Assembly (NCBI GenBank): GCA_019359495.1
Contig: JAHHHF010000077.1
Span: 1-64,000 of the forward strand
Reading direction: 5' to 3'
Source of the DNA: Goleter apudmare HA4340-LM2
GTDB lineage: Bacteria > Cyanobacteriota > Cyanobacteriia > Cyanobacteriales > Nostocaceae
DNA length: 64,000 bases
Shown here: positions 13,682-35,346 of the stretch, piece after piece
Layout: each line of letters opens with the position of its first letter
How positions within the stretch are numbered: position 1 is the stretch's first letter
Notes under the pieces: generated by a model
The model's input: only the letters and a program-made list of their open reading frames with translations
Told to the model about the DNA's origin: nothing
Databases searched by the model: none
Made by a program: the position numbers and the translations under genes

Positions 13682-13857
13682 AGAGGCTGTTTGAAAAGTC
13701 TAAATTCATACCATATCCGGCGATTAGAAATCGCGTCTACACAGACAAAACCCACCTTCGTGGGTTTGAAAGACCTAATTTTACGTTAGTCCGCGCAGGC
13801 GGACTTAGCCTGTGTAGTAGCGAATTATATTCGCCCAAAACTTTTCAAACAGGCTCT
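13682..13857. mobile_element. MITE-like element with 18-bp terminal inverted repeats
   Basis: AGAGGCTGTTTGAAAAGT (13682-13699) is repeated inverted as ACTTTTCAAACAGGCTCT (13840-13857), with one mismatch. Inside, GTCTACACAGAC and GCCTGTGTAGTA form a second pair of arms, with AAACCCACC/GGGTTT and TCCGC/GCGGA hairpins between them. It has no coding capacity and the size (176 bp) fits a miniature element folding as one long hairpin. The same internal words occur widely in Nostoc genomes, as I recall. Confidence 0.75.
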
Positions 13858-22361: not shown

Positions 22362-22811
22362 ATGCAACTAATACACAAGAACAAGGAACTTCTACGCGTC
22401 ATTCTAGCCGTGGCAATCATTATCGTTGGCATGACGCACTTTTTAGTACCAGAACCATACGTCAAAATTATGCCACCACAACTTCCTTATCCATTAGAAC
22501 TAGTTTATCTCAGTGGATTTTATGAAATATTGGGTGGTATTGGGTTATTAGTTCCACCTGTGAGTCAAGCTGCGGCTTGGGGATTAATTGCACTATTTAT
22601 TGCAGTTTTTCCTGCTAATATCAACATGGCAGTGAATCATATTAAACTTGAAAGTATCCCCTACTCAGATTCACCTTGGTTGCAAGCAATCAGACTACCT
22701 TTCCAAGCAGTTTTAATTGCTTGGGCTTGGTGGTATACAAAACCTTCAGATAAAGATAAACAAGCTTCTGTAATTCCTAAATCGTTAATTCCTCAAGAAT
22801 TGGATTGGTAA
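22362..22811 (+). CDS. DoxX-like small membrane protein
   Basis: A 149-residue integral membrane protein with four hydrophobic segments (about 10-28, 48-66, 72-90, 115-133). The pattern I-V-G-M-T-H-F-L-V-P-E-P-Y and Y-L-S-G-F-Y-E-I-L-G-G-I-G-L-L matches the DoxX/DoxX-like family, whose members are linked to redox processes but mostly unassigned. It is followed after 12 bases by the AllA-fold gene at 22824 and is probably co-transcribed with it. Nothing in the sequence shows a substrate; a role tied to the purine island is only suggested by position. Confidence 0.8.
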   Translation: MQLIHKNKELLRVILAVAIIIVGMTHFLVPEPYVKIMPPQLPYPLELVYLSGFYEILGGIGLLVPPVSQAAAWGLIALFIAVFPANINMAVNHIKLESIPYSDSPWLQAIRLPFQAVLIAWAWWYTKPSDKDKQASVIPKSLIPQELDW

Positions 22812-22823
22812 TTTGGTAATTTT

Positions 22824-23318
22824 ATGGCTAAATCACAAATAGTACAACAATTGCAAGCTGCATGGATAACGCCAGAAAATTTTCAGCGTTATGGACAGGT
22901 AATTTTTCCTAGTGAAGATGGTAAGGCTTTTGATGCCGAAGAAGCGCAATTAAATTTGCAAAATGGGATGCCACGATTTTATATTATGCAGTTGCAAAAA
23001 CGCGGGCGGCAATTTCATAAAATTACTCGGCATACAAAATGTACTCAATGTTTGGGTTCATTGCAGGGTAAAGATTGGTTAATTGCCGTTTGTCCTCCTA
23101 ATAATCATGTGAATGAACCTGCACTAGAAGAGATTGCAGCTTTTCGGATTCCAGGAAATTGTTTTATTAAGTTAGAGGTGGGAACTTGGCACGCTGGGCC
23201 GTATTTTGAGCATGAAGTTGTAGATTTTTATAATTTGGAGTTGAGTGATACCAATGTAGTGGATCATTTCACTCATAATTTTCTTCAAAGTCATCATTTA
23301 GAGTTGGAAATAATTTAA
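22824..23318 (+). CDS. AllA-fold protein (ureidoglycolate lyase family), first copy
   Basis: A 164-residue cupin-like protein of the ureidoglycolate lyase (AllA) superfamily. Visible are H-K-I-T-R-H-T-K-C-T-Q-C-L-G-S near 66-80, D-W-L-I-A-V-C-P-P near 84-92, A-F-R-I-P-G near 104 and E-V-G-T-W-H-A-G-P-Y near 116-125, followed by V-D-F-Y-N-L-E-L. AllA splits ureidoglycolate into glyoxylate and urea in allantoin breakdown. It opens the nitrogen island, next to xanthine dehydrogenase (convergent). A second, divergent AllA-like protein is encoded at 27320-27892, so one of the two may have another substrate. Exact reaction not proven. Confidence 0.78.
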   Translation: MAKSQIVQQLQAAWITPENFQRYGQVIFPSEDGKAFDAEEAQLNLQNGMPRFYIMQLQKRGRQFHKITRHTKCTQCLGSLQGKDWLIAVCPPNNHVNEPALEEIAAFRIPGNCFIKLEVGTWHAGPYFEHEVVDFYNLELSDTNVVDHFTHNFLQSHHLELEII

Positions 23319-23325
23319 GTTAAAG

Positions 23326-23697
23326 TTAGTTCACTGTTTCAAAAAAGAGAACTGCTTGCAGCCTGGTTTTACCTGATTTCTTTTCTTGCTCACTAATATC
23401 TGCTAATTCTCTAGAATACTTTAATAAACGGAATAAGCCACAGTATTGCCAATTTTTGTTTTCCTGTTTTAGAAAAATTGGGATAGGTTCATTTTGTTGG
23501 ATTAGTATTTCTGCTGATTCTAGAATTTTTTTCTTATCGCCTATGAGAATTTCCCAAGGCGCATTAGGACTAATTTCACTTGTAAAAGCACCATATAATA
23601 CTTTGTTGCCTTTCCTCGGAAGACACCATCGGTGATTTCCTCCCAATACTTTGCTAATTTCATGACGTGAGTAAGAATTTCCGATTTGAAATAACAT
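23326..23697 (-). CDS. Unknown protein at the end of the xanthine dehydrogenase operon
   Basis: A 123-residue soluble protein I do not recognise. It begins M-L-F-Q-I-G-N-S-Y-S-R-H-E-I and contains G-G-N-H-R-W-C-L-P near 19-27, G-A-F-T-S-E near 36, W-E-I-L-I-G near 48, W-Q-Y-C-G-L-F-R near 82-89 and R-L-Q-A-V-L-F-F-E near 112-120. The W-x-Y-C-G-x-F-R block recalls PUA-like or restriction-associated small domains, but this is a guess. It lies 12 bases after the xanthine dehydrogenase stop on the same strand and only 7 bases from the convergent AllA-fold gene. Confidence 0.6.
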   Translation of the reverse strand: MLFQIGNSYSRHEISKVLGGNHRWCLPRKGNKVLYGAFTSEISPNAPWEILIGDKKKILESAEILIQQNEPIPIFLKQENKNWQYCGLFRLLKYSRELADISEQEKKSGKTRLQAVLFFETVN

Positions 23698-23709
23698 TGA
23701 TATTTGATA

Positions 23710-26310
23710 TTACTTGCTGCTATTTTTAAGTTCTCGCCAAACCCTTTCAGATGTCATGGGGAGTTGGCGTAGTCTGCAACCTGTGGCGTGGGCGATCGCA
23801 TTGGCTATGGCAGGTGCTGTACAATTGGTGGTAATTTCCCCCACGCCTTTAGCGCCAAAGGGGCCGTAGGGGTCGGCTTGTTCGATTAAAATTACTTCTA
23901 TCGGTGGGATGTCTGCGGCGGTGGGGATACGATATTCCCGCAATTTGGGGTTAAGGATGCGTCCTTGGGAATCAAATAATAGTTCTTCAGTTAAAGCATA
24001 ACCAATTCCCATGGCAATACCCCCTGTGGCTTGTCCGTGACAAATGCGGGGATTAATTGCTTTACCAATATCAATGGCTTGCACACATCGTAAAACTTGA
24101 GTTTTACCTGTTTGTGTATCAACTTCTACTTCTACTCCTTGTACAGCAAAAGTTAAGGTTGACTCATCGGCTACATAGCTAATTTCTGCACTGGTTTCAT
24201 TACTGGCGAGTAATTTTTCGGCGGCTAATTTCACAGCTTGTCCAGAAATATAAACTGTTGCAGAAGCGTAAGAACCAGAGTCAAATGGTGCATTTTGTGT
24301 ATCACCAGAAATGATCATAATATCAGCTACATTCACACCTAAAATTGCTGCGGCTATTTGTCTTAAAGTAGTATCCGAACCGGTACCCACATCGACGGAA
24401 CCAGTTCTTAATTCATATTTACCATCAGGTAAACGTGATAATTTCACATTAGCCACATGGATTTTCGATAAACCACTACCTTGCATAGAAATAGCAAACC
24501 CCACACCAAGACGGCGAGAACCTAAAACTTGTGGTGGACTGCCAGGAACATAACCTAATGCCTGAGTTACTGCTTCCCAACATTCATTAACAGCGTAGCT
24601 ACCAATTAAATTAAAGTGGTCTTCTGACTTACCTAAATTAATATTATCCCCTGGACAAATTAGGTTTTTTTGCCGCATTTCTATGGGGTCAATATTTAAC
24701 TGTTGAGCAATTTCATCGATTTGACTTTCCATAGCAAAAGCGCCTTGAGTTGCCCCATAACCTCGAAATGCACCCCCAGGCATAGTATTTGTATAAACTG
24801 CAAAACCGCGAAATCTTTTATGAGGGCAACGATATAATCCAAGAGGAATATAACCTGATAAAAATACTACAGTTTGTCCATGATTGCCATAGGCACCAGT
24901 ATTAGCTATGACTTCTAAATCTTGAGCAATCAGTGTACCATCAGTCTTGACACCGCTTTTAATTTTAATTTGCATAGCATGGCGGCTATTTGTAGCAGTA
25001 AATTCCTCCGTTCTGGTAAATTCCCACTGTACTGGTTTACCTGTACGCAGAGTTGCCAAAGCACAAAGGTCTTCTGATAATATCTCTTGTTTATTACCAA
25101 ATCCCCCACCGAGTTGTGCTTTATAAACACGGATTGTCTCTTTGGGTAAATTGAATAATTGCGAGAGTAATCTTTGACAATGAAATGGTACTTGAGTGCT
25201 GGAACGTACTACTAAAGTGCCATCAGTTTCTAGCCAACTAATAGTGATGTGGGGTTCTAAATGTACATGTTGGATTGCAGGTAAATCATAGGTATTTTCG
25301 ACTATCAAAGCGGCTTCTTGGAATCCTTGTTCCACATCACCAGATTCCAGAAATATTTGCCCAGCAATATTATGATTCCTGTCAGGAATCTGAGTTGATT
25401 CTGGTTCATCATGAATGATGACACTACCAGCCTGCATTGCTAATACTGGGTCAATAACGTGGGGTAAAATTTCGTAATCAACTACAATTAATTGACATGC
25501 TTGTGCCGCAATACTAACTGATTCTGCCACCACAGCCGCAATGCGATCGCCAATAAATCTTACCTTATCATCTAATAAGTAATGATCCAACGGATCGGGT
25601 ACTGGTTGTGCGTGTCCAGCGGTAGTGTAAGGTATCCTGGGGACATCTGCGTGGGTGAAAATTGCCACTACACCAGGGAGTGCTTTGGCTTGGGTGGTGT
25701 CGATGTGGCGGATGCAGGCGTGGGCATAAGGCGATCGCAATACTTTAAGATGTAGTAATCCAGGCGGTGCAATATCTGCTGTGTAGGAAGCTTTCCCAGT
25801 AACAATTGCTTCCCCATCTTGTTTGGGAACACTTTGTCCCACCGACGAAGATGAGAGTGAGGAGTCAGGATATGGGGAGTTGAGAACACTTGCAATAATC
25901 GCCTGATAACCAGTACAGCGACACAAATTTCCCTTCAAAGCCAAGCGTAATTCATCTGGTGATAATTCCGGTAACTTTGCCGCACTCATAATTACCCCAG
26001 GAGTGCAAAAACCGCATTGAAACCCTTGTGCTGCTAAAAATGCTTGTTGTATGGGCGCAAGTTCGCCATTTTGTGAAAGTCCTGCAATTGTCCTTACCGA
26101 TTGATTAGCAACTCGCATTGCCGGATAAATGCAACTATGGATAGGTGTATCGTTTACCCAAACCGTACAAGCACCACAATCACCAGTGTCACATGCACGA
26201 TGTACATCAAACCAACCCAACTGTCGTAATAAACTCAAAAGACTAGTCCCTGGTTGACAAGTTGTTGTAAAAGATTGCTGATTCACACACAATTTTATTG
26301 GTTCTGACAT
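23710..26310 (-). CDS. Xanthine dehydrogenase-type fusion: 2Fe-2S plus molybdenum subunit
   Basis: A molybdo-flavoenzyme subunit of about 866 residues that fuses the iron-sulfur part directly to the Mo-binding part without an FAD domain. Numbered from the GTG at 26322: plant-type cluster Cys 44, 49, 52, 64; second cluster Cys 103, 106, 134, 136; then Mo-cofactor motifs Q-L-G-G-G-F-G-N-K near 405, F-R-G-Y-G-A-T-Q-G near 515 and G-A-K-G-V-G-E near 822, the last holding the catalytic Glu. The FAD subunit is encoded next upstream (26495-27298). Substrate is probably hypoxanthine/xanthine given the allantoin and urease genes around. Start chosen at ATG 26310; GTG 26322 is an alternative. Confidence 0.9.
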   Translation of the reverse strand: MSEPIKLCVNQQSFTTTCQPGTSLLSLLRQLGWFDVHRACDTGDCGACTVWVNDTPIHSCIYPAMRVANQSVRTIAGLSQNGELAPIQQAFLAAQGFQCGFCTPGVIMSAAKLPELSPDELRLALKGNLCRCTGYQAIIASVLNSPYPDSSLSSSSVGQSVPKQDGEAIVTGKASYTADIAPPGLLHLKVLRSPYAHACIRHIDTTQAKALPGVVAIFTHADVPRIPYTTAGHAQPVPDPLDHYLLDDKVRFIGDRIAAVVAESVSIAAQACQLIVVDYEILPHVIDPVLAMQAGSVIIHDEPESTQIPDRNHNIAGQIFLESGDVEQGFQEAALIVENTYDLPAIQHVHLEPHITISWLETDGTLVVRSSTQVPFHCQRLLSQLFNLPKETIRVYKAQLGGGFGNKQEILSEDLCALATLRTGKPVQWEFTRTEEFTATNSRHAMQIKIKSGVKTDGTLIAQDLEVIANTGAYGNHGQTVVFLSGYIPLGLYRCPHKRFRGFAVYTNTMPGGAFRGYGATQGAFAMESQIDEIAQQLNIDPIEMRQKNLICPGDNINLGKSEDHFNLIGSYAVNECWEAVTQALGYVPGSPPQVLGSRRLGVGFAISMQGSGLSKIHVANVKLSRLPDGKYELRTGSVDVGTGSDTTLRQIAAAILGVNVADIMIISGDTQNAPFDSGSYASATVYISGQAVKLAAEKLLASNETSAEISYVADESTLTFAVQGVEVEVDTQTGKTQVLRCVQAIDIGKAINPRICHGQATGGIAMGIGYALTEELLFDSQGRILNPKLREYRIPTAADIPPIEVILIEQADPYGPFGAKGVGEITTNCTAPAIANAIAHATGCRLRQLPMTSERVWRELKNSSK

Positions 26311-26322
26311 ATAGTATTCCAC

Positions 26323-26494
26323 TGTGATTTTTGAACTTATTCTTGGAGACAGAAAATGGATTTTGCTATAGCATCAACTAATATAGTGAACTGCTGGGAT
26401 TTTTATTTTTACACTAGAGCAGATTATTCTTCTCTCTGCGCCTCTGCGGTTCGTTAAAAAAAGTATTTCTCACAAAGCAAATAGCATCACAATA
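26323..26494. other. Intergenic gap with a dispersed repeat word
   Basis: CTCTGCGCCTCTGCGG at about 26436-26451 is the same word found near 27906 and 13974, a common Nostoc interspersed sequence. No terminator seen. Confidence 0.4.
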
Positions 26495-27298
26495 TTAAAT
26501 CTTTAATTCTTGCAGCATCTCCCTCATTAAAACTGCCGTAACTTCTCGCCGATAAATTGCACTCGCCCTAGCATCCTCAATAAAACTTACCCCTTCCAAA
26601 ACATTAATCAACCCTGTTTCTAAAAACTCATCATTTGCAACTTCCACTAAACAAGGTGCAACAACACTAGCACCAATCACACAACTTATCTGTTGCTGAT
26701 TTCTCACACCAACTACAATAGCCAAAGCCGGCTCACTCGCTGTCACACTAAAGCGTTGGTAATTAACTTGCCATTTTAAATTAGATATTGGAATCAAAAC
26801 TCGCCGGAGTATTTCCCCTGTTTTTAATATAGTCTGACAATGACCGAGTTGAAAATTCTTAGCTGCAACTCGCCGTGACTCTCCATTTAAATTCCAAATT
26901 TCATAAATTGCTTCCAACGCCACCATCATTGGTGCTAGAGTTCCCACCGATAAAGCCAGACAAATATTACCTCCCACCGTCGCCATATTAATGACTTTAA
27001 ATGACGCCGCTAGTGCAGCAATAGCACTTTTAAATCCCTCGGCTGCTGTCCATTCTGATAACCACGGATATTCTAATAACTTAATTAACGGACAAGTAGC
27101 CCCAATAATTAAATAATCATCCTCAACTATAATTTCTGACCAACCTAAATCTTGTATATCAACTAATACTTTCAGATGTGGTTGCGGTTCGGAAAATAGC
27201 CATGTTCCACCAGCTAACCACACCCAACCCTCACCCCAGTTGGTGATATTTTCCAGGTTATGAGGTGTGAGATATGTTTCTACATTGGGCAAATCCAT
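26495..27298 (-). CDS. FAD-binding subunit of a xanthine dehydrogenase-type enzyme
   Basis: A 267-residue protein of the molybdopterin dehydrogenase FAD-binding family. It shows the adenine/pyrophosphate-binding loop reduced to W-L-A-G-G-T-W-L near 27-34, followed by L-V-D-I-Q-D-L, then A-T-V-G-G-N-I-C near 107-114, both typical. C-terminal part fits the CO_deh_flav_C-like domain. With the fused 2Fe-2S/Mo subunit downstream it would complete the electron path Mo to Fe-S to FAD to NAD. Same strand, 172-186 bases upstream of the large subunit; start ATG 27298. Upstream neighbour is the AllA-like gene at a 21-base gap. Confidence 0.88.
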   Translation of the reverse strand: MDLPNVETYLTPHNLENITNWGEGWVWLAGGTWLFSEPQPHLKVLVDIQDLGWSEIIVEDDYLIIGATCPLIKLLEYPWLSEWTAAEGFKSAIAALAASFKVINMATVGGNICLALSVGTLAPMMVALEAIYEIWNLNGESRRVAAKNFQLGHCQTILKTGEILRRVLIPISNLKWQVNYQRFSVTASEPALAIVVGVRNQQQISCVIGASVVAPCLVEVANDEFLETGLINVLEGVSFIEDARASAIYRREVTAVLMREMLQELKI

Positions 27299-27319
27299 TG
27301 TTTAGATAAACCAGAAGGA

Positions 27320-27892
27320 TTAAATATCCAATTGTATTTCATAGCCCAATCTTTTTGGCAGGGAAATTTTATAGACATCGCCTTGATTCATTTCCCCTGG
27401 TGATTGCATTTGACTCAAAGCGGTGACGACTTCATCAGAATTGGCTGTGAGGATCACAACTGGGCGATCGCACGCTATGGGAAAATCATGCCAAGTACCA
27501 AGATGCAGTAGGAGTCCGTGGCCTGGGGGAAACCGCAATGCTTGCACTTGATTTAAATCTGGAAGATTTTCGCCGTGGGTGTGATTTGGTGGTGCTAACA
27601 CCATAATAAATGGCGACTGACCCAAAGCAATAAACATTTGGGTCATGTGCAGATGTCTTTCTAGCCAAACAATTGGCGGATATCCAGGGAGAATTTTGGC
27701 GGTTCTAAATGTTGCAGTTCCTCGATAGGTGAAGTCTATATTTTCACCTTCTAATACTCGTTCTTGATAAAAGGGAATACCTAAGCCGGGTTTGCTAACA
27801 TCATCGCCTAGGAGATGTCCGTAGGGTTTGATGTTTTCTTGTGTGGCATCTATTACGGTAATTTTTAAAGTTTTGGTGGGGGAATTTGTCAT
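27320..27892 (-). CDS. allA: Ureidoglycolate lyase AllA-like, second copy
   Basis: A protein of about 190 residues starting at ATG 27892 (M-T-N-S-P-T-K); the frame is open 23 codons further upstream but that part lies in a dispersed repeat, so I exclude it. Key features, numbered from this start: G-L-G-I-P-F-Y near 35, W-L-E-R-H-L-H-M-T-Q near 75-84, F-I-M-V-L-A-P-P-N near 94, A-L-R-F-P-P-G-H-G near 120 and H-L-G-T-W-H-D-F-P near 130-138. These fit AllA, which forms glyoxylate and urea from ureidoglycolate. It sits between the allantoinase and the xanthine dehydrogenase subunits in one minus-strand run, which supports the assignment. Confidence 0.82.
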   Translation of the reverse strand: MTNSPTKTLKITVIDATQENIKPYGHLLGDDVSKPGLGIPFYQERVLEGENIDFTYRGTATFRTAKILPGYPPIVWLERHLHMTQMFIALGQSPFIMVLAPPNHTHGENLPDLNQVQALRFPPGHGLLLHLGTWHDFPIACDRPVVILTANSDEVVTALSQMQSPGEMNQGDVYKISLPKRLGYEIQLDI

Positions 27893-27899
27893 AAGATTT

Positions 27900-27985
27900 A
27901 TTAACCGCAGAGGCGCAGCGAAAAGTCTGAGCGGAGGCTTCCTTCGCTCAGAACTTTTCAAGACAGAGAAAGCAGAGAGTAAAAA
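27900..27985. repeat. Dispersed repeat with inverted arms upstream of allA
   Basis: GAAAAGTCTGAGCGGAGG and CCTTCGCTCAGAACTTTTC (about 27920-27959) form an imperfect hairpin, flanked by CCGCAGAGGCGCAG. It contributes a false N-terminal extension to the allA frame. Confidence 0.5.
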
Positions 27986-28084
27986 CCAAATATTCCAATT
28001 TATAAAGTAGGGGTGGTGTCTCCCCGCCCTTCCTCACAAGAATATATATTATGTTGTAAACATTATAGGAATTGATATTTATTA

Positions 28085-28936
28085 CTATCCTTGATTCATC
28101 CATTCGTAAATGCCTTCACCTGTGGTTAGCCAAGTTTCAGGTTGATTTTTGATATGCAATAAACATTGTTTTAAATATTTTAATCTTAAAGGTTGACCCA
28201 CAATAAAGGGATGTAAGCCAATAGCCATCACTCGCCCTTGAGATTTGCCATCTTGCCATAACTGGTCAAATTGGTCTGTAATCGCTTGGGCAAATTCTGC
28301 ACCAGAAAAGCGATTATTTAAGCATAAGCTAATATCATTGGCTTCTATGGTGTAGGGAATTGCTAATAGGCGACCATTGGGTAAGGGATACCAATATGGT
28401 TGGTCATCGTTTACCCAGTCAGCAGTGTAAGTAATGCCGGCTGCATGTAATAATTCAAAGGTTAATTCGGTAATTGAGAAGCCGGGGGTTAACCAGCCTT
28501 GAGGAGTCTTATTTGTGGCTTGTCGAAATAAATCTAGAGTTTGATTAATGATACTAATTTCTGTTTCCCTATCCATGCCACTATGCCCAGTGGAATTATT
28601 AATGCCATGTGCCATAATTTCCCAACCGTGTTGCTGGATGGCGGTGATAATTTCCGGGTAAAGTGAACAAATTTCGCCATTGACTGCGGCTGTGACGGGA
28701 ATTTCTAACTCAGAAAAGAGTTCCAATAATCGCCAACTACCTACACGATTACCGTAATCTCGCCAGCCATAATTAGCAATTTCCGGATAACTATTTAAAT
28801 GGGGTTGAATTGCTGTTCCCAGTTTACCAAAAGTAAAGTGTTCGATGTTCATCACTACCCACACAGCAACTCTGGCATTATTGGGTAATTTTAAAGTTGG
28901 ACGCTGGCTAATGGGTTGAAAAGATGGAGGTTGCAT
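28085..28936 (-). CDS. puuE: Allantoinase of the PuuE/polysaccharide-deacetylase family
   Basis: A 283-residue NodB-fold protein. It has the features of the PuuE group rather than of sugar deacetylases: V-W-V-V-M-N-I-E near 25-32, W-R-D-Y-G-N-R-V-G near 58-66, the block G-W-E-I-M-A-H-G-I-N-N-S near 105-116, W-L-T-P-G near 148 and G-L-H-P-F-I-V-G-Q-P near 241-250. PuuE-type allantoinases open the allantoin ring to allantoate without a bound metal. It is upstream of allA and the xanthine dehydrogenase genes on the same strand (192-base gap to the allA start), which strongly supports a purine breakdown role. Confidence 0.85.
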   Translation of the reverse strand: MQPPSFQPISQRPTLKLPNNARVAVWVVMNIEHFTFGKLGTAIQPHLNSYPEIANYGWRDYGNRVGSWRLLELFSELEIPVTAAVNGEICSLYPEIITAIQQHGWEIMAHGINNSTGHSGMDRETEISIINQTLDLFRQATNKTPQGWLTPGFSITELTFELLHAAGITYTADWVNDDQPYWYPLPNGRLLAIPYTIEANDISLCLNNRFSGAEFAQAITDQFDQLWQDGKSQGRVMAIGLHPFIVGQPLRLKYLKQCLLHIKNQPETWLTTGEGIYEWMNQG

Positions 28937-29020
28937 TGATTTGTGATTTTAAGCTATCCAGTTTTTATTTGAAATTTGTGTTTTATTTTAAACGTAAATA
29001 CATTACACACACGTCTCTTC

Positions 29021-29056
29021 AAATAACAAATGACCAATAACAAATAACCAATGACG
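29021..29056. repeat. Heptamer tandem repeat
   Basis: AAATAAC, AAATGAC, CAATAAC, AAATAAC, CAATGAC follow each other in the gap between the allantoinase and the BMP lipoprotein gene. Confidence 0.7.
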
Positions 29057-29067
29057 ACTTAATCAAA

Positions 29068-30210
29068 TTAAGATTTTTGCAGGGGAAGAGAACCTTCTAT
29101 ACCTTCAACATACCAATCCATCGCTAGTTGTTTGGCATCTTCCAACACTTTGCCTTTGAGTACTCTTACTACTCCTGCTTGGTCTTTTACCGGGCCAGCA
29201 AAAGGATGGGTGACACCTTGAATAAATTCCTCACGTTTGGCGTTAACTAACTGCTGTACATCAGTGGGAATGACTGGATTCATGGGAGAAATATCTACCA
29301 TGCCTTTCCCTATACCATACCAATTGGCTTTGGATTTCCATGTGCCATTCATGACTGCTAAGGCTGTATCTGTATAAAATTTACCCCACTTATGAATTGT
29401 TGCTGTTAAGTGTGATTTGGTTGCAAACCTGCTCATGTCAGTATTGTAACCAAAAGCATAAATGCCTTTTTCTCCTGCTAATTGCACAGTTGCAGTGGAA
29501 TCTGTATGCTGTGCCAACACATCTGCACCCAGATTGATTAAAGCTTGTGCTGTTTGTCTTTCTTTTGGTGAATCATACCAACTCTGCACCCAAAGTACTT
29601 GCACTTTGGCTTGGGGATTTGTCAGCCGTAATCCTTGAGTAAAGGCATTTATTGTGCGAATTACTTCGGGAATTGGGTATGTGCCAATAAAACCAATGAT
29701 GTTGGATTTAGTCATTTTGCCAGCAATCATCCCTGTTAAGTATCGCGCTTCTTCAAAACGTCCTAAATATGTGCCTACATTCTTAGCGCGTTTGTATCCC
29801 TGACAGTTTTCAAAAATCACATCAGGAAATTCCTGGGCTACTTTGATAGTTGGGTTCATGTAGCCTAAGGAAGTTGTAAAAATCAACTTGTTCCCATCCA
29901 ATGCTAGTTGACGAATCACCTTTTGGGCGTCGGCGTCTTCGTTGACATTTTCTAAAAAAGTAGTTTTGACTTTATCCTGCAAATAGGCCTCCATTTCTCT
30001 ACGGCCTAAATCATGGTAGTAAGTCCAACCAAAATCTCTAACGGATCTAGTGTAGACAAATCCTACTTTCAGGGGTTCACTCGCTACCACAGGTGACAGT
30101 GTGGGCGATACCTCAACTTGTAAATTAGGTCTTCTGGTGGAAATACAGCTTGGCAAGGCTAAACTAGACCCTGCTAAAGTTGCATACTTGAGAAAATTCC
30201 GACGATCCAT
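29068..30210 (-). CDS. BMP-family ABC transporter substrate-binding lipoprotein
   Basis: A 380-residue periplasmic receptor of the BMP (basic membrane protein/PnrA-like) family, which binds nucleosides or purines in the characterised members. Start ATG 30210 gives M-D-R-R-N-F-L-K, a twin-arginine type leader, ending in a lipobox L-P-S-C near residue 22; an upstream in-frame extension of 24 codons has no signal character. Core features: G-F-V-Y near 49, D-F-G-W-T-Y-Y near 57, G-F-I-G near 172 and D-V-L-A-Q-H-T-D-S near 211. No permease or ATPase gene is beside it, so partners must be elsewhere. Position at the head of the minus-strand purine run suggests purine-derivative uptake. Confidence 0.85.
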   Translation of the reverse strand: MDRRNFLKYATLAGSSLALPSCISTRRPNLQVEVSPTLSPVVASEPLKVGFVYTRSVRDFGWTYYHDLGRREMEAYLQDKVKTTFLENVNEDADAQKVIRQLALDGNKLIFTTSLGYMNPTIKVAQEFPDVIFENCQGYKRAKNVGTYLGRFEEARYLTGMIAGKMTKSNIIGFIGTYPIPEVIRTINAFTQGLRLTNPQAKVQVLWVQSWYDSPKERQTAQALINLGADVLAQHTDSTATVQLAGEKGIYAFGYNTDMSRFATKSHLTATIHKWGKFYTDTALAVMNGTWKSKANWYGIGKGMVDISPMNPVIPTDVQQLVNAKREEFIQGVTHPFAGPVKDQAGVVRVLKGKVLEDAKQLAMDWYVEGIEGSLPLQKS

Positions 30211-30426
30211 TTTTATCGACTGCTTTATACTTGCTGCACAAGATAGTTTTGATAGCTGGTAGCGGCAGACACATTCTGGCATTGCCTATCTGCTCGATTT
30301 TAGCGCTTTATTTTTAGCTATTTCAGCAGGTAGAAATTTAAATGTAACCGTGGGCGATCGCTCTCTCACTGGTTTATACGGTAGAATTTGCCAGGTTATT
30401 AAACTTCATGCTCTAAAATCACAGCT

Positions 30427-31005
30427 ATGGCATACACACCCAAAATCCTGGCCTTTGCAGGCAGTACCCGGAAAGACTCTTATAACAAACAAGTGGTAAA
30501 AATTGCCGCAGCTGGTGCTGAAGCCGCAGGTGCTGAGGTAACTTACTTAGATTTGCGCGATTTGCCCCTACCTCTTTATGATCAGGATTTGGAGGATCAA
30601 GAAGGGCTACCTGCAAATGCACTAGCACTGAAAGATTTGCTAATTTCTCACCAAGGTTTATTAATTGCGTCGCCAGAATACAACAGTTCTGTCACAGCAG
30701 TTCTCAAGAATGCTATTGACTGGGCTTCCCGTCCCTCACCTAATGAACCTCCACTAGCAGCTTTTGCGGGTAAGGTGGCAACAATTATGAGTGCTTCACC
30801 AGGAAATTTGGGCGGTTTGCGGGGGTTGGTTCACTTGCGGGCTATCCTAGGCAATATTAAAGTTTTAGTACTGCCTGAGCAAATAGCTGTACCAAAAGTT
30901 TATGAAGCCTTGAATGCTGATGGCACACTCAAAGATCCAAAGCAACAGGAAGCGGTGGAAAAGTTGGGTGAGAATTTAGCCAAGATATTAGTGAAGCTGA
31001 ATTGA
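30427..31005 (+). CDS. NADPH-dependent FMN reductase family flavoprotein
   Basis: A 192-residue flavodoxin-fold protein. The FMN phosphate loop is A-F-A-G-S-T-R-K-D-S-Y-N near residues 9-20, and the second FMN contact is S-P-E-Y-N-S-S-V near 80-87 followed by L-K-N-A-I-D-W. Members reduce FMN, quinones or chromate with NAD(P)H. Length is normal. It is divergent from the BMP lipoprotein gene with a 216-base gap. A direct link to purine oxidation is not shown. A palindromic repeat follows its stop codon directly. Confidence 0.88.
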   Translation: MAYTPKILAFAGSTRKDSYNKQVVKIAAAGAEAAGAEVTYLDLRDLPLPLYDQDLEDQEGLPANALALKDLLISHQGLLIASPEYNSSVTAVLKNAIDWASRPSPNEPPLAAFAGKVATIMSASPGNLGGLRGLVHLRAILGNIKVLVLPEQIAVPKVYEALNADGTLKDPKQQEAVEKLGENLAKILVKLN

Positions 31006-31009
31006 AATG

Positions 31010-31057
31010 TTCGTAGTAAGGACTTTAGTCCTGCATTCTTAAGCACTAAAGTGCTGA
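31010..31057. repeat. Palindromic repeat (GTAGTAAGGACTTTAGTCC family)
   Basis: TTCGTAGTAAGGACTTTAGTCCT then AAGCACTAAAGTGCT: two small hairpins (AGGAC/GTCCT and AGCAC/GTGCT). The same arrangement is at 53262-53318. Here the right terminal arm is degenerate. Confidence 0.7.
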
Positions 31058-31196
31058 TAGCTTTCTCAGTTGGATGTAACACAATCGAGGGCGGGGAGAC
31101 CCTGCCCCTACCGGTTATGGGATTTAAAACTATACTTCACTGGTGTGAAAACCGCTATAACGGTGGGTGGACTTTGAAAAACTTGTTGAATTGGTG

Positions 31197-31565
31197 TTAA
31201 TTAATTAAATAACGCGCTCCTAAAAGTAACAAAAAGATGCCATACAACTTCTTCATTGTTTCACTACTAATAAATGGTTGATTGGCAAATAGTGCCCCAA
31301 ATAAATTACCTACTATCAAACCAGCAGCAATCAACAAGGCATATTTGATATTCAAATTACCACTGCGATAATAAACGGCTGCTCCTAAAATCCCAATTGG
31401 TAAAATTTGAGCCGCGATGGAAGTACCTGTGGCAAACTTTTGATCTAGACCCAAAAGCAGCACCATTGCTGGTACCATAATCGCGCCGCCACCAATCCCA
31501 AACATACCACCAGCTACACCAGCTACAAGACCGATGAGCAGCATTTGGATGACTATGTTAGACAT
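31197..31565 (-). CDS. TauE/SafE-type half-size membrane transporter
   Basis: A 122-residue polytopic membrane protein with the family start G-L-V-A-G-V-A-G-G-M-F-G-I-G-G-G near residues 12-27 followed by A-I-M-V-P, then T-G-T-S near 47. TauE/SafE proteins (DUF81) export sulfite or organosulfur anions and usually have ~250 residues as two similar halves. This one is a single half, as many cyanobacterial ones are, and would need to pair. It lies 27 bases downstream of the formamidase gene on the same strand, suggesting co-transcription. Substrate unknown. Confidence 0.8.
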   Translation of the reverse strand: MSNIVIQMLLIGLVAGVAGGMFGIGGGAIMVPAMVLLLGLDQKFATGTSIAAQILPIGILGAAVYYRSGNLNIKYALLIAAGLIVGNLFGALFANQPFISSETMKKLYGIFLLLLGARYLIN

Positions 31566-31592
31566 AATAAATTGTCAAGCTTTTTTGATGAG

Positions 31593-32558
31593 TTATAAAT
31601 TCATTTTATGGGAAAGGATGACTTTTGGTAGCATACCGTGGACGCCTTTTATAGGATGATTTACCACTTGCGTGATGCGAAAATTCACAGCTAAACTACA
31701 TAAGACATAGGCATCTTCTGGTGATAGCTTGAGGAAAGTTACCAGAAAATCAATCATATTTTTTAAAGCTAATTCTAAGGCAGTATCTAAAGTTTCAGCA
31801 AACCCCATTGTGATGATATCTGTAGGAGTTTCCGCAATAGGTGTTGTCAGTTGTAAATCTTGACGAAGCTTGAGTTTAATTCTACCATTCATCGAAGTTT
31901 CAATGGCGGTAACATTCACTTCACCGTCTCCTTGGGCTGCATGTCCATCACCAATGGAAAATAATGCACCAGCAACAAAGATTGGTAAGAAAACTTTTGC
32001 ACCTGCTTGTAATTCGCGGTTATCGATATTACCACCATAAGTGCCTGGAGGAATTGAGTTGCGGGAATTTTCGGGAGTGGCGACACCGAGTATGCCAAAA
32101 AATGGATGCAGGGGAATTTTGATGTTTTTGTCAGCAGGAAATTCGGCGATATTGTGAGTTAAATCTAAGGGAATGAATCTGAGTGCAGGTTGGGAAAATA
32201 GTTGTGGTAATGCACCCCAACCTGTACGAATGGCATTAAAACCAATGGGTAGGCTGGGTGCGATCGCCTTTAATTCTACTTCTAAAACATCCCCTGGTTG
32301 CGCTCCTCTGACATAAATCGGCCCTGTGAGTAAGTGTGGTCCCTCATCGATAATGCGTTCTGGTGGGAGATTTTGACAAATATCCGCAAATTCCGGTGTG
32401 AGAAACTCTGGCGGTGCTTTGTCGTACAGATAGTATCCGGTATAGGTTTCTACATCTATAGTGTCACCAGAATCTATAGTGAGTGCTGGTGGTAATAAAT
32501 GAGAAAAGCCACCGAGATGTACTGTTTCTCTGGTAGCTTTTAAAATGTGATGAGTCAT
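31593..32558 (-). CDS. Acetamidase/formamidase family amidohydrolase
   Basis: A 321-residue protein of the FmdA/AmdA family, which hydrolyses formamide or short amides to ammonia and the acid. Family features: D-S-G-D-T-I-D-V-E-T near 29, L-L-T-G-P-I-Y-V-R-G near 97-106, P-G-D-V-L-E-V-E-L near 109, G-D-G-H-A-A-Q-G-D-G-E-V near 204-215 with likely metal ligands, and a C-terminal helical part (D-A-Y-V-L-C-S-L-A). It sits between the AIM24-like gene and the TauE-like gene, all on the minus strand, and adds another ammonia-releasing step to the island. Confidence 0.9.
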   Translation of the reverse strand: MTHHILKATRETVHLGGFSHLLPPALTIDSGDTIDVETYTGYYLYDKAPPEFLTPEFADICQNLPPERIIDEGPHLLTGPIYVRGAQPGDVLEVELKAIAPSLPIGFNAIRTGWGALPQLFSQPALRFIPLDLTHNIAEFPADKNIKIPLHPFFGILGVATPENSRNSIPPGTYGGNIDNRELQAGAKVFLPIFVAGALFSIGDGHAAQGDGEVNVTAIETSMNGRIKLKLRQDLQLTTPIAETPTDIITMGFAETLDTALELALKNMIDFLVTFLKLSPEDAYVLCSLAVNFRITQVVNHPIKGVHGMLPKVILSHKMNL

Positions 32559-32574
32559 TGAAGGTTGATTTTTA

Positions 32575-33240
32575 TTAAGAAGTTTTTGGAATAGCGGCGG
32601 TAATTTGACGTAACATCATTACTTGCCAGTAAGGAACAGGGGCGAGTAAAACTGTGCCTGTTCCTTCAAAAGTATTGACGAGAAATTCACCAGAAGTCAT
32701 GGAACCTAAAAGGGACTTTGTGGCTTTTTCGACACGATAATTTAAATTGCTGGTGCGGGCGATCGCAAAGTTGCCATCTACTACTAGGCGATCGTTTCGT
32801 AAATTTACCACTTCTACAGGGCCTTGTGCTACCATTACCACTTTACCCCTGCCTTTGACTTTGGTTTGGAACAAGCCTTCACCACCAATAAAGCCAGAGA
32901 TCAATTTATTGCGTTCAATGCCAATTTCAACACCGCCATCACTCGCCCAGTAAGCGCCACTGTCTAAAATCCATTCGTTGCCGTCTAATTCTAAAATGTG
33001 ATATCCCGATAAAGAAGGCTCTAAATATAATTCGCCAGTTCCTTTATAAGTGGGGCGAAAAATATTTTCACCTGTAGCTAATGATTTCAAAAAACCACCA
33101 GCAGAAGGGGCTTTTGATTCCATCACAATATTGCCCCGCATATAATACATCGCCCCAGATTCGGTGCGTACTGTTTCGTTCTGTAACGTTATCTTGACTA
33201 AATGCAGGCTTTCGCGTTCGATAATTTCAAAATTTGCCAT
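32575..33240 (-). CDS. AIM24 / TIGR00266 family protein
   Basis: A 221-residue protein starting at ATG 33240 (M-A-N-F-E-I-I-E-R); the 18 codons upstream lie in a heptamer repeat and are left out. It is all-beta, with repeated G-x-G-x-L/V-x-L turns: F-R-P-T-Y-K-G-T-G-E-L-Y-L near 61, L-D-S-G-A-Y near 91, and F-L-V-N-T-F-E-G-T-G-T-V-L-L near 183-196. AIM24 family members have a TRAP-like beta fold and no known enzymatic role in bacteria. It precedes the formamidase by 16 bases and is probably in one unit with it. Function unknown. Confidence 0.85.
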   Translation of the reverse strand: MANFEIIERESLHLVKITLQNETVRTESGAMYYMRGNIVMESKAPSAGGFLKSLATGENIFRPTYKGTGELYLEPSLSGYHILELDGNEWILDSGAYWASDGGVEIGIERNKLISGFIGGEGLFQTKVKGRGKVVMVAQGPVEVVNLRNDRLVVDGNFAIARTSNLNYRVEKATKSLLGSMTSGEFLVNTFEGTGTVLLAPVPYWQVMMLRQITAAIPKTS

Positions 33241-33589
33241 AAGTTGGTGTTTGTTATTTGTTATTCTTACAAAGTTCTGATTGGAGGAAACCACCGCTCA
33301 GACTTTGGGCTTTGTCATTGGTGAAGAGTCTCGTAGGCACAAGTCTGGAAATAGACAATGGGAAAGGTAAGAGGTAATCAGCAACAATTGCCTCTTACCT
33401 GCTTACCAACTTTTCGCTAAGGGTATAGTAGTTATGAGCCAGAATTTACCTACAGTTGTGGCAGATACTTTTTCGGATGGCAAGAAAAATTTTTTCTATA
33501 GACCCTGTAGAGACTTTGCACTGCAACATCTCTACCAAATACCAGATATCAAATTACGTCCCTTATTAGTTAGCTTGATTTACATCTAT
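33241..33589. other. Gap between AIM24-like gene and ureG with a small hairpin repeat
   Basis: GTAGAGACTTTGCA / TGCAACATCTCTAC at 33507-33535 is an imperfect inverted repeat of a kind common in Nostoc. A heptamer run (ATAACAA units) lies at about 33247-33264. A plus-strand frame across 33434-33712 overlaps the end of ureG and does not look real. Confidence 0.5.
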
Positions 33590-34189
33590 CTAGCTGATAT
33601 GGGTGGCGACAAACTTAATCACTTCTGTCAGTCCTGCTTGAGTTTTGAGGTTAGTGAACACAAAAGGCTTGTCACCACGCATTTTTTTTGCATCTCGTTC
33701 CATGACATTTAAATCTGCACCAACATAAGGTGCAAGGTCAGTTTTATTAATCACTAATAAATCAGATTTAGTAATTCCAGGGCCGCCTTTGCGGGGAATC
33801 TTATCGCCTGCGGCGACATCAATAACATATATTGTTAAATCCACTAATTCTGGACTAAATGTTGCAGCTAAATTATCACCACCACTTTCTAAGAATACTA
33901 AATCCAAATTCAGAAATCGCTGCTCTAACTGTTCAATTGCTGCCAAGTTCATCGAAGCATCTTCACGAATTGCTGTGTGGGGACAACCCCCAGTTTCTAC
34001 TCCTAAAATGCGATCGCTTGCTAATGCCTGAGAACGTACCAAAAATTGAGCATCTTCTTGAGTATAAATATCATTCGTCACCACGGCAATCTGATATTGT
34101 TCCCTTAATGCTTTACATAAAGCATCCACTAATGCCGTCTTCCCCGAACCCACAGGGCCAGCCACCCCAACGCGAAATGTGTTTGTCAT
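33590..34189 (-). CDS. ureG: Urease accessory GTPase UreG
   Basis: UreG is the SIMIBI-class GTPase that drives nickel insertion into urease. The 199-residue protein has the P-loop [12 protein letters not shown] near residues 8-19, [12 protein letters not shown] near 65-76 containing the C-P-H nickel/zinc site, F-L-E-S-G-G-D-N-L near 99 and the guanine-binding N-K-T-D near 148. The start codon lies inside a heptamer repeat (CAAATGACAAAC). It is the last gene of the minus-strand ureE-ureF-ureG set, 49 bases after ureF. Confidence 0.97.
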
Positions 34190-34210
34190 TTGTTATTTGT
34201 TATTTGTTTC
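34190..34210. repeat. Heptamer repeat giving the ureG start codon
   Basis: On the minus strand AACAAAT is repeated three times and the ATG of ureG (34187-34189) is the last AT of the array plus G. Confidence 0.75.
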
Positions 34211-34238
34211 TCCCCATCTCCCTTATCTCCCCCATGCC

Positions 34239-34934
34239 CTAACTCCTAAACAACCTTGTATATTGAGTTTCATGCTGCATACTAGCTAAAGATAAACCCC
34301 AAGTGCAACAGGCAAGGTCGTCATCTGCTAAGGATAAAATTTCATTGGCCGCAGTGCTAAATAGTGGTTGTAAATCTAGTAATAATTCTTGTCCTGCGGT
34401 TTGTCCTAGAGGAATGAGTTTAACGCCCGCAGTAATCAAATTACTCGCCCAACTGTGGAGATATGCTAACAAAGCGGCTTGGTGATTGATTTGCCAATGG
34501 GCTGCGGCGATGCCAAAAGCGATCGCATAATTACAAGGATTACGCACGGTGTTGACAATGGGCATAATTCGTGAATCTAGTTTACCAAGCAATTGTAGGA
34601 GCGATCGCCCCATTTGCCAGCTAGAGGTGCGTAATTCTGCGGTTTCTCTGGCAGCAGATAACCACAAGTTCCAACGGCATAAAGCCTCGAAATCAGCGAT
34701 TTTCATAGCTTCAACGGCTCGTAGCATCACCCCTGCCTCTAAGCGAATTGCCCCATAACGCAGTTGAGATTCTAACCAGTGCTTAAGACTTGCTTGATGA
34801 ATAATTGTGCCATTTTCTACCAGTATTTCTAAACCCTCAGAATAACTGTATGCGCCTACAGGTAAGCTGGGGCTAGCCAATTGCAAAATAGACAAAAAAT
34901 GGCTATCCGTGAGCGTGATCTCCATAAGCACCAA
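34239..34934 (-). CDS. ureF: Urease accessory protein UreF
   Basis: UreF acts with UreD/UreH as the platform that receives UreG and opens the nickel path into urease. The 231-residue protein shows [20 protein letters not shown] near residues 17-36, the family hallmark, and the helical remainder with [10 protein letters not shown] near 132-141. It overlaps the end of ureE: starts at 34934 or 34925 are both inside ureE, so translation is likely coupled. Normal length. Confidence 0.95.
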
Positions 34935-35346
34935 CTTCGGGATAAAAGGGTAAACTTTCTGCTTTAATTTCTAAACCCAACTGTTCCAACATTATACGTA
35001 AAACAGGATCGGGCGATAGGCGTAAATAGCTTGGCGTAATTTCTACAGGTAAATGCCGATTGCCTAAATGGTACGCTGCTCGCAGTAACAAAAGTGGTGT
35101 GTCGGCAGATACAGTCAAAACTGGCTCAGATTTAGCAGTGATTTTAATGAAATTACTTTGGCTTTCGTCTTGCAGAATATCACCATCTTTTAAAACAGTG
35201 CCCCTAGGTAAACGCAAAAATATAACTGTGCCATCTTCTAGTTCAAAACGATGACGGCTGCGGGTGCGTTCTTCTGCTGTTAACGCTAGTGTAAAAGTAA
35301 TTATTGCATCCAAGTTAGGCGGTTTTCGTTGGGTTAATGTCAACAT
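34903..35346 (-). CDS. ureE: Urease accessory nickel chaperone UreE
   Basis: UreE carries nickel to the urease maturation complex. The 147-residue protein has the N-terminal peptide-binding domain ([12 protein letters not shown] near 23-34, L-R-L-P-R-G-T near 49) and the C-terminal metal-binding domain with Y-H-L-G-N-R-H near 92-98 (His ligand) and the end G-D-H-A-H-G, a short His tail. First gene of the accessory set. ureA, ureB, ureC and ureD are absent from the window, so structural genes must be elsewhere. A sequence GTG-N8-TAC (35401-35414) upstream is one base away from an NtcA site. Confidence 0.95.

Follow-up and report, generated by a model that had tools for sequence, protein, structure and literature searches.

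A conserved pair of PuuE-like and AllA2 proteins at a cyanobacterial locus that reads as purine catabolism

By the names of its genes, a locus in the cyanobacterium Goleter apudmare HA4340-LM2 reads as ordinary purine catabolism, and the question that it raises is whether the known purine route can run there at all. The window analysed here, 64,000 nucleotides long, makes up positions 1-64000 of contig C77 in a genome of 6.7 Mb (113 contigs, 99.97% complete), and at this locus its named relatives are cyanobacterial. A sequence-only reading had drawn about 13 kb of it as a nitrogen island leading from purine through allantoin and ureidoglycolate to urea and ammonia. That observation is real, over-named and too wide: the finding at this locus is a conserved, uncharacterised pair of enzymes, a PuuE-like protein and a ureidoglycolate-lyase-family protein, AllA2.

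The first core gene (positions 28085-28936, minus strand) encodes the PuuE-like protein, a candidate cyclic amidohydrolase of the polysaccharide-deacetylase superfamily (PF01522). The second (27320-27892, minus strand, with an internal ATG at 27892) encodes AllA2, a PF04115 protein and candidate urea-releasing enzyme. We compared 42 loci, 37 from a search of GTDB genome contigs plus five further stretches; all of the 37 are cyanobacterial by title but L073 (Rokubacteriota). A 55% identity threshold places L036, which carries a 45% form, outside this count, and L031 and L050 seem to represent one contig. In 36 of the 42 loci (35 of 41 distinct ones) the PuuE-like gene is immediately followed on its strand by AllA2, which is more than chance would give. 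Among 386 genomes AllA2 occurs in nine, namely all six genomes in which the search of 292 cyanobacterial genomes described below found the close form of the PuuE-like protein, G363 and G407, in both of which the PuuE-like gene adjoins it, and G284. The last of these holds a decayed copy in the original order (L132, 9270-10622), where PuuE 4-36 and 241-282, AllA2 130-212 and XdhFAD 1-47 are left beside a full-length AllA1; in this one genome the two partners have decayed jointly. In G177 they are unlinked, at 1.56 and 2.21 Mb, about 0.64 Mb apart. The pairing and the co-occurrence are direct results of the computation, and PuuE-like and AllA2 form a conserved unit whose members belong together. 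Both are defined proteins found in several culture-collection strains, and no description of the cyanobacterial pair was seen among the titles and abstracts listed, in several cases up to a limit, by searches of an open-access library.

Around this pair the neighbourhood varies. Genes for the FAD and molybdenum subunits of a xanthine dehydrogenase (XDH)-family hydroxylase, XdhFAD and XdhMo, lie 3' of AllA2 in 13 of the 42 loci and are its direct neighbours in 11 of these, L048 and L052 being the exceptions. XdhC was seen in seven loci (one family member scanned), a BMP receptor in five, and two permease families, each BPD_transp_2 in the one member scanned, in five and seven. An FmdA-like gene is linked in seven loci and ureEFG in two; for distant neighbours the counts are minimum values, because some stretches extend less than 10 kb on one side. 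The FmdA-like and ureEFG counts rule out the whole 13 kb as a single unit. The island had thus been drawn wider than what is conserved, and what stays of it is a likely urea-releasing, nitrogen-scavenging module.

The name PuuE-type allantoinase is not confirmed. On TIGR03212 the PuuE-like protein scores 153.4 bits and misses the cut-off of 424.6, which a control, Acinetobacter PuuE, passes with 490.4. In a tree of 30 sequences, ten close cyanobacterial forms make up one clade (support 98/96) and the control PuuE proteins a separate one (99/98, branch 2.15), in a topology for which the program flagged meeting long branches and warned of false joins. The PuuE motifs NYEEGGE, GWYTGR and LHCRLxGRP are replaced in the alignment by NxEHF, GWLTPGF and LHPFIVGQP. 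What is common to the PuuE-like protein and PuuE (TIGR03212; 3cl6) is the superfamily, the fold, the E of NxE and DD.P; what differs is the score (153 vs 425 bits), the motifs, the clade and a genome without any uraD or uricase match. On the separate clade and the below-cut-off score we reject the reading as plain PuuE.

Matches at 1e-20 came from 28 of 292 cyanobacterial genomes searched with the PuuE-like protein. Six of these have the close form (66-100%), 21 have just a form at 28-35%, and G215 combines one form at 45% with another at 31%. None of the six close-form genomes has a second PuuE-family match at 1e-20, and the close form and the 28-35% form look like alternatives within the phylum. 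Of eight sampled 28-35% forms, seven group within the clade of the control PuuE proteins (L027 lies outside), and all 18 loci fetched from the 21 genomes with this form alone match Acinetobacter PuuE at 53-59%. Near these true PuuE genes uraD was found in four of the 18 loci, two of the four also having HpxO and two uraH; the other 14 have none of the three within the fetched stretch. G215 likewise has a true PuuE, and on another of its contigs HpxO and uraD occur together. Canonical urate-pathway clusters, in various combinations of HpxO, UraH, UraD and PuuE, were seen in the cyanobacteria L147, L153, L160 and L143. These share with the window the phylum and the supposed aim, nitrogen from purines, whereas their PuuE forms a clade distinct from the PuuE-like protein.

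Genome-wide searches for the canonical genes covered 31 genomes with the close PuuE-like form plus G215 (n = 32) for uricase and 2-oxo-4-hydroxy-4-carboxy-5-ureidoimidazoline (OHCU) decarboxylase, and 33 close-form genomes, the source genome among them, for all others. Uricase was found in none of the 32, source genome included (control positive); OHCU decarboxylase was found in one, G215, which also has the true PuuE, and not in the source genome. PuuD had no match in the 33 (the query's source record and an independent record at 38% were both matched as controls), nor had AllC, the allantoate amidohydrolase (6 of 14 control genomes matched). HpxO over the cut-off of 500 was found in none of the 33 either (control positive). 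Sub-cut-off matches to FAD monooxygenases occur in 29 of them (best 262.6), the best of the source genome being partial at 100.5 bits, whereas HpxO of L147, L153 and L160 scores 604-635. Allantoicase, too, was found in none of the 33 genomes, in a search whose control was the query's own source plasmid only, with no cyanobacterial allantoicase among the controls; it replaced an earlier Pfam search without positive control and used a protein query. That these genes were not found suggests that the known purine route cannot run as drawn in these organisms. The chain from purine to allantoin to ureidoglycolate is not supported, given the putative allantoinase outside the PuuE clade and the canonical genes not found in the genomes searched. 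The expectation that missing steps lie elsewhere proved right for urease, whose alpha subunit is encoded on another contig of the source genome (G000:C81:56698), ureEFG and urease alpha both being present; uricase, allantoicase and AllC were not found genome-wide. The call for new enzymes was right in spirit, with the already named PuuE-like and AllA2 proteins, not the unassigned genes, as the best candidates.

The second half of the pair raises a similar problem of naming. Two proteins had been called AllA-like, and both are indeed above the Pfam PF04115 cut-off of 23 (AllA2 46.4 bits, AllA1 40.8 bits); as strict ureidoglycolate lyases they are not confirmed, both staying below the NCBIfam equivalog cut-offs (at best 30.8 vs 260 for AllA2 and 31.9 vs 230 for AllA1), which AllA from a purine cluster, used as a control, passes (257.8 vs 230). 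Like AllA (PF04115; 1yqc, 1xsq), AllA2 keeps ERH..Q..WH, positions common to it and E. coli AllA in the alignment and presumably catalytic. It differs from AllA in its score, about 31 bits where the cut-offs are 212-260, and in an additional conserved C-terminal tail, SDEVV..EMN.GDVYKI, common to its relative in Acidithiobacillus caldus. Over 27 aligned AllA2 sequences the mean column identity is 84%. AllA1 (22824-23318, plus strand) is without the Glu of ERH, lies inside the fetched flank in two of the 42 loci and is probably accessory at most. A cyanobacterial 'ureidoglycolate lyase' peptide is listed in one earlier publication (PMC3949748).

What, then, could the pair do? We tentatively favour, at a little less than an even chance, a two-enzyme ureide module of PuuE-like and AllA2, often joined by the XDH-family hydroxylase and independent of uricase. 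The hydroxylase, sometimes with the XdhC maturation factor, would oxidise a nucleobase, the likeliest reaction being that of xanthine to urate, and the cyclic ureide would be either made or imported, a BMP-type importer being sometimes joined to the module. By hydrolysis of an amide bond in the ring of this ureide, PuuE-like would give a ureido acid, from which AllA2 would free urea, and the unlinked urease would convert urea to ammonia, so bypassing the series of uricase, 5-hydroxyisourate (HIU), OHCU, allantoin, allantoate and allantoicase. Whereas the pairing is backed by conservation and one joint loss, the chemistry of the two proteins is predicted from their families, and the hydroxylase step from the context of some homologues; both catalytic activities, the substrate and the order of steps are thus putative. 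Candidate substrates are allantoin, urate or its oxidation product, and barbiturate.

The hydroxylase bears on the choice between purine and pyrimidine. Its [2Fe-2S], FAD and Mo domains are all present by Pfam, as the earlier naming of XDH subunits implied, and are spread over two genes, one for a fused [2Fe-2S]+Mo subunit (23710-26310, minus strand, ATG at 26310; PF01799, PF01315, PF02738, PF20256) and one for the FAD subunit (26495-27298, minus strand; PF00941, 72.6 bits). The equivalog cut-off for the XDH Mo subunit is not reached (best NF043082, 621.9 vs 780). Plasmid-borne relatives of the fused subunit are 39-43% identical among the best 20 of 1290 records, and five stretches with fused homologues were fetched. 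In Rhodococcus and Nocardia pucL, uraH and uraD lie beside the homologue, and the Nocardia stretch additionally holds PuuE and alc; these adjoining uricase genes give the XDH assignment some support. The classical purine-pocket Glu/Arg, which we take to be bovine positions 802/880, are Gln/Leu in the window's fused subunit. Gln at the first position also occurs in homologues from Nocardia, Streptomyces and Shinella and in both E. coli paralogues, XdhA and XdhD, while Glu and Arg are both kept in the A. caldus Mo subunit and two XdhB controls. Because of the mixed homologue context and the Gln/Leu pocket, the window hydroxylase is likely but not certain to be an XDH.

In oxidative pyrimidine catabolism uracil is converted to barbiturate, barbiturate to ureidomalonate, and ureidomalonate to malonate and urea. 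Were the hydroxylase a uracil dehydrogenase, PuuE-like a barbiturase analogue and AllA2 the ureidomalonase, three steps would meet three enzyme classes with none left over, and a hydroxylase without the classical xanthine-binding Glu/Arg would be in its place. We nevertheless consider this quite improbable, since two fused homologues adjoin uricase genes and in A. caldus the Mo subunit retains both classical residues. The distribution of the hydroxylase also speaks against it: an XdhMo orthologue (at least 66%) is found in 23 of the 33 close-form genomes, one of the 23 (G304) being broken, and is missing from ten; the same search gave none in G215 and G284. AllA2 is shown in 29 of these 33 genomes, the other four being those of L054, L055, L070 and L072. 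With ten genomes lacking the XDH orthologue, XDH is an optional companion of the pair, and it is uncertain that the substrate comes from purines. In G304 (C156:56365-58547) XdhMo is split in two, residues 464-606 being unmatched; this is the genome of L049, where PuuE-like and AllA2 stand side by side.

The reductive urate pathway of E. coli was also considered for the window. E. coli XdhD/YgfM, 33% identical at 485 bits, resembles the window hydroxylase in its fused FeS+Mo subunit and separate FAD subunit, and XdhD is reported to reduce urate to yanthine (PMC12507026). Where XdhD has Glu606, the window protein has Gly, in a surrounding alignment that is gappy. A YgfK search without positive control matched none of the 33 close-form genomes, and the pathway may still apply.

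A parallel outside the cyanobacteria was found in A. caldus, where two plasmids (L077 and L078) carry the only close relative of AllA2 in the plasmid collection (55-56%). The order there is XDH Mo, FeS, FAD, AllA2, ring-opening amidohydrolase, XdhC, DUF4089, AtzE, HpxZ and gamma-glutamyltransferase, and in one of the plasmids an insertion sequence lies between the FAD and AllA2 genes. As in the window, the AllA2 relative (55%) follows the XDH FAD subunit and stands beside a ring opener; the operon differs in having an opener of the AtzD/cyanuric acid hydrolase family, an unfused XDH with the classical Glu/Arg, and extra amidohydrolases. The A. caldus and cyanobacterial orders together thus put beside AllA2 and XDH a ring opener from either of two unrelated families. 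That the ring-opener slot is occupied by a protein from the cyanuric acid hydrolase/barbiturase family would suit the pyrimidine scheme, but this protein passes, if narrowly, the model for cyanuric acid amidohydrolase (372.3 vs 360). Chemical urate oxidation can give cyanuric acid and triuret, as stated in one study (PMC7948467), which would be consistent with a ring opener that follows XDH. By analogy, the fused XDH homologues beside pucL, uraH and uraD and the Glu/Arg of A. caldus favour the purine side. One more specific version of the module would have PuuE-like open by hydrolysis either urate or its non-enzymatic photo-oxidation product and AllA2 strip urea from the result, an unrelated opener doing the same work in Acidithiobacillus; we regard it as unlikely. 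The titles and abstracts listed by the open-access library searches, some of them limited in length, likewise held no account of an XDH-AllA-AtzD operon.

Besides the pocket residues, the ten genomes lacking XdhMo and the limited control for allantoicase, several observations weigh against the module that we favour. No AllA2 adjoins the PuuE-like gene in six of the 42 loci (L035, L054, L055, L070, L072 and L073), the genomes of the last five lying outside the genome-wide AllA2 search. The AllA2 structure model is poor (pLDDT 52), and its top five Foldseek matches, read from this poor model, are AllA-family structures (best E 5.4e-4). Uricase was not found in the fetched fused-XDH stretches of Streptomyces (L086), Shinella and Haloarcula, three of the five, and the A. 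caldus parallel amounts to two plasmid records of one species. Queries with allantoicase and AllA gave no match in 20 stretches of true-PuuE cyanobacteria; as there is no allantoicase near true PuuE either, its absence alone does not set the window type apart. Finally, PuuE is nearest to the PuuE-like protein by sequence, and the AlphaFold model of the latter (pLDDT 80.5) has PuuE 3cl6, the nearest solved structure, as its top Foldseek match (TM 0.80, E 7.2e-21), so that PuuE-like may still be an allantoinase.

Some of these points would be expected of a shortened allantoin pathway, in which PuuE-like is the allantoinase and both allantoate and ureidoglycolate are split by AllA2, possibly together with AllA1, in place of allantoicase, the allantoin being imported or derived from urate by some unknown or non-enzymatic oxidation. 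The fold nearest to PuuE, the ERH..Q..WH that AllA2 retains from AllA and the allantoicase unseen near PuuE in the 20 true-PuuE stretches all agree with it. The ten PuuE-like genomes without XDH orthologue also resemble SAR11 allantoin users, which are reported to be without upstream purine genes (PMC11698098). The SAR11/SAR116 purine and allantoin operons described there have XDH, PuuE, ureidoglycolate lyase and urea release in common with the window, and additionally list PuuD, HIU hydrolase, OHCU decarboxylase and allantoicase (PMC11698098). We hold this pathway to be somewhat unlikely: the signature motifs of PuuE are replaced, the clade is separate and the curated cut-off is missed; no allantoicase or AllC was found, no known urate oxidase was seen over its cut-off, and OHCU decarboxylase occurs only in G215.

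Relatives carried on plasmids bring in a further possibility, that some other cyclic amide (hydantoins, damaged bases or secondary metabolites) is hydrolysed and disposed of, with XDH and the BMP receptor only loosely linked. Such relatives occur in 562 plasmid records, and the six regions looked at (38-43% identity) hold a varied set of enzymes: N-carbamoylsarcosine amidohydrolase in H1 and H11, dihydropyrimidinase, N-carbamoyl-D-amino-acid hydrolase and Asp/Glu racemase in H7, amidases in H5 and H9, and XDH with XdhC in H27. The company of XDH, 3' in 13 of the 42 loci and directly after AllA2 in 11, with XdhC in seven, tells against this possibility, as does AllA2 adjoining XDH in A. caldus also, and we judge it distinctly unlikely. 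Five Novosphingobium plasmid records hold a more distant PF04115-like protein (29-35%), and XDH and PuuE queries gave no match in the two of these stretches that were looked at.

Should the pair prove active on urate or on barbiturate, its members would be enzymes for a step that has no known gene in these bacteria. To our knowledge, uracil dehydrogenase and ureidomalonase are enzymes without assigned genes. If uricase-independent opening of urate is real, both enzyme activities would be new, as would the route by which purines yield urea.

The remaining genes of the island are its less constant members. The BMP-family substrate-binding protein (29068-30282, minus strand; PF02608, 196.5 bits), a probable importer component, had been correctly recognised, as had the urease accessory genes ureG, ureF and ureE (33590-35346, minus strand; PF02492, PF01730, PF02814, PF05194), which are occasional neighbours. 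Another occasional neighbour encodes the FmdA_AmdA-family protein (31593-32558, minus strand; PF03069, 115.9 bits), for which the name formamidase is too specific, at 75.2 against the 500 bits set by NF045496. Directly 3' of XdhMo lies a 123-aa protein (23326-23697, minus strand) without Pfam or NCBIfam match. A 122-aa TauE/SafE protein (31197-31565, minus strand), in which a match of 110 residues covers nearly all of a 237-position profile, is perhaps an internally deleted transporter. A scan for the NtcA-like GTAN8TAC found none in the gaps upstream of the PuuE-like or BMP genes; the whole window has 19 copies against a shuffled mean of 10.4, and none of the shuffles reaches 19. A sigma-70 scan found 6, against a mean of 11.7. 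A single match to a CRISPR direct repeat lies at 13787-13810 on the minus strand (RF01356, 35.4 vs 35 bits).

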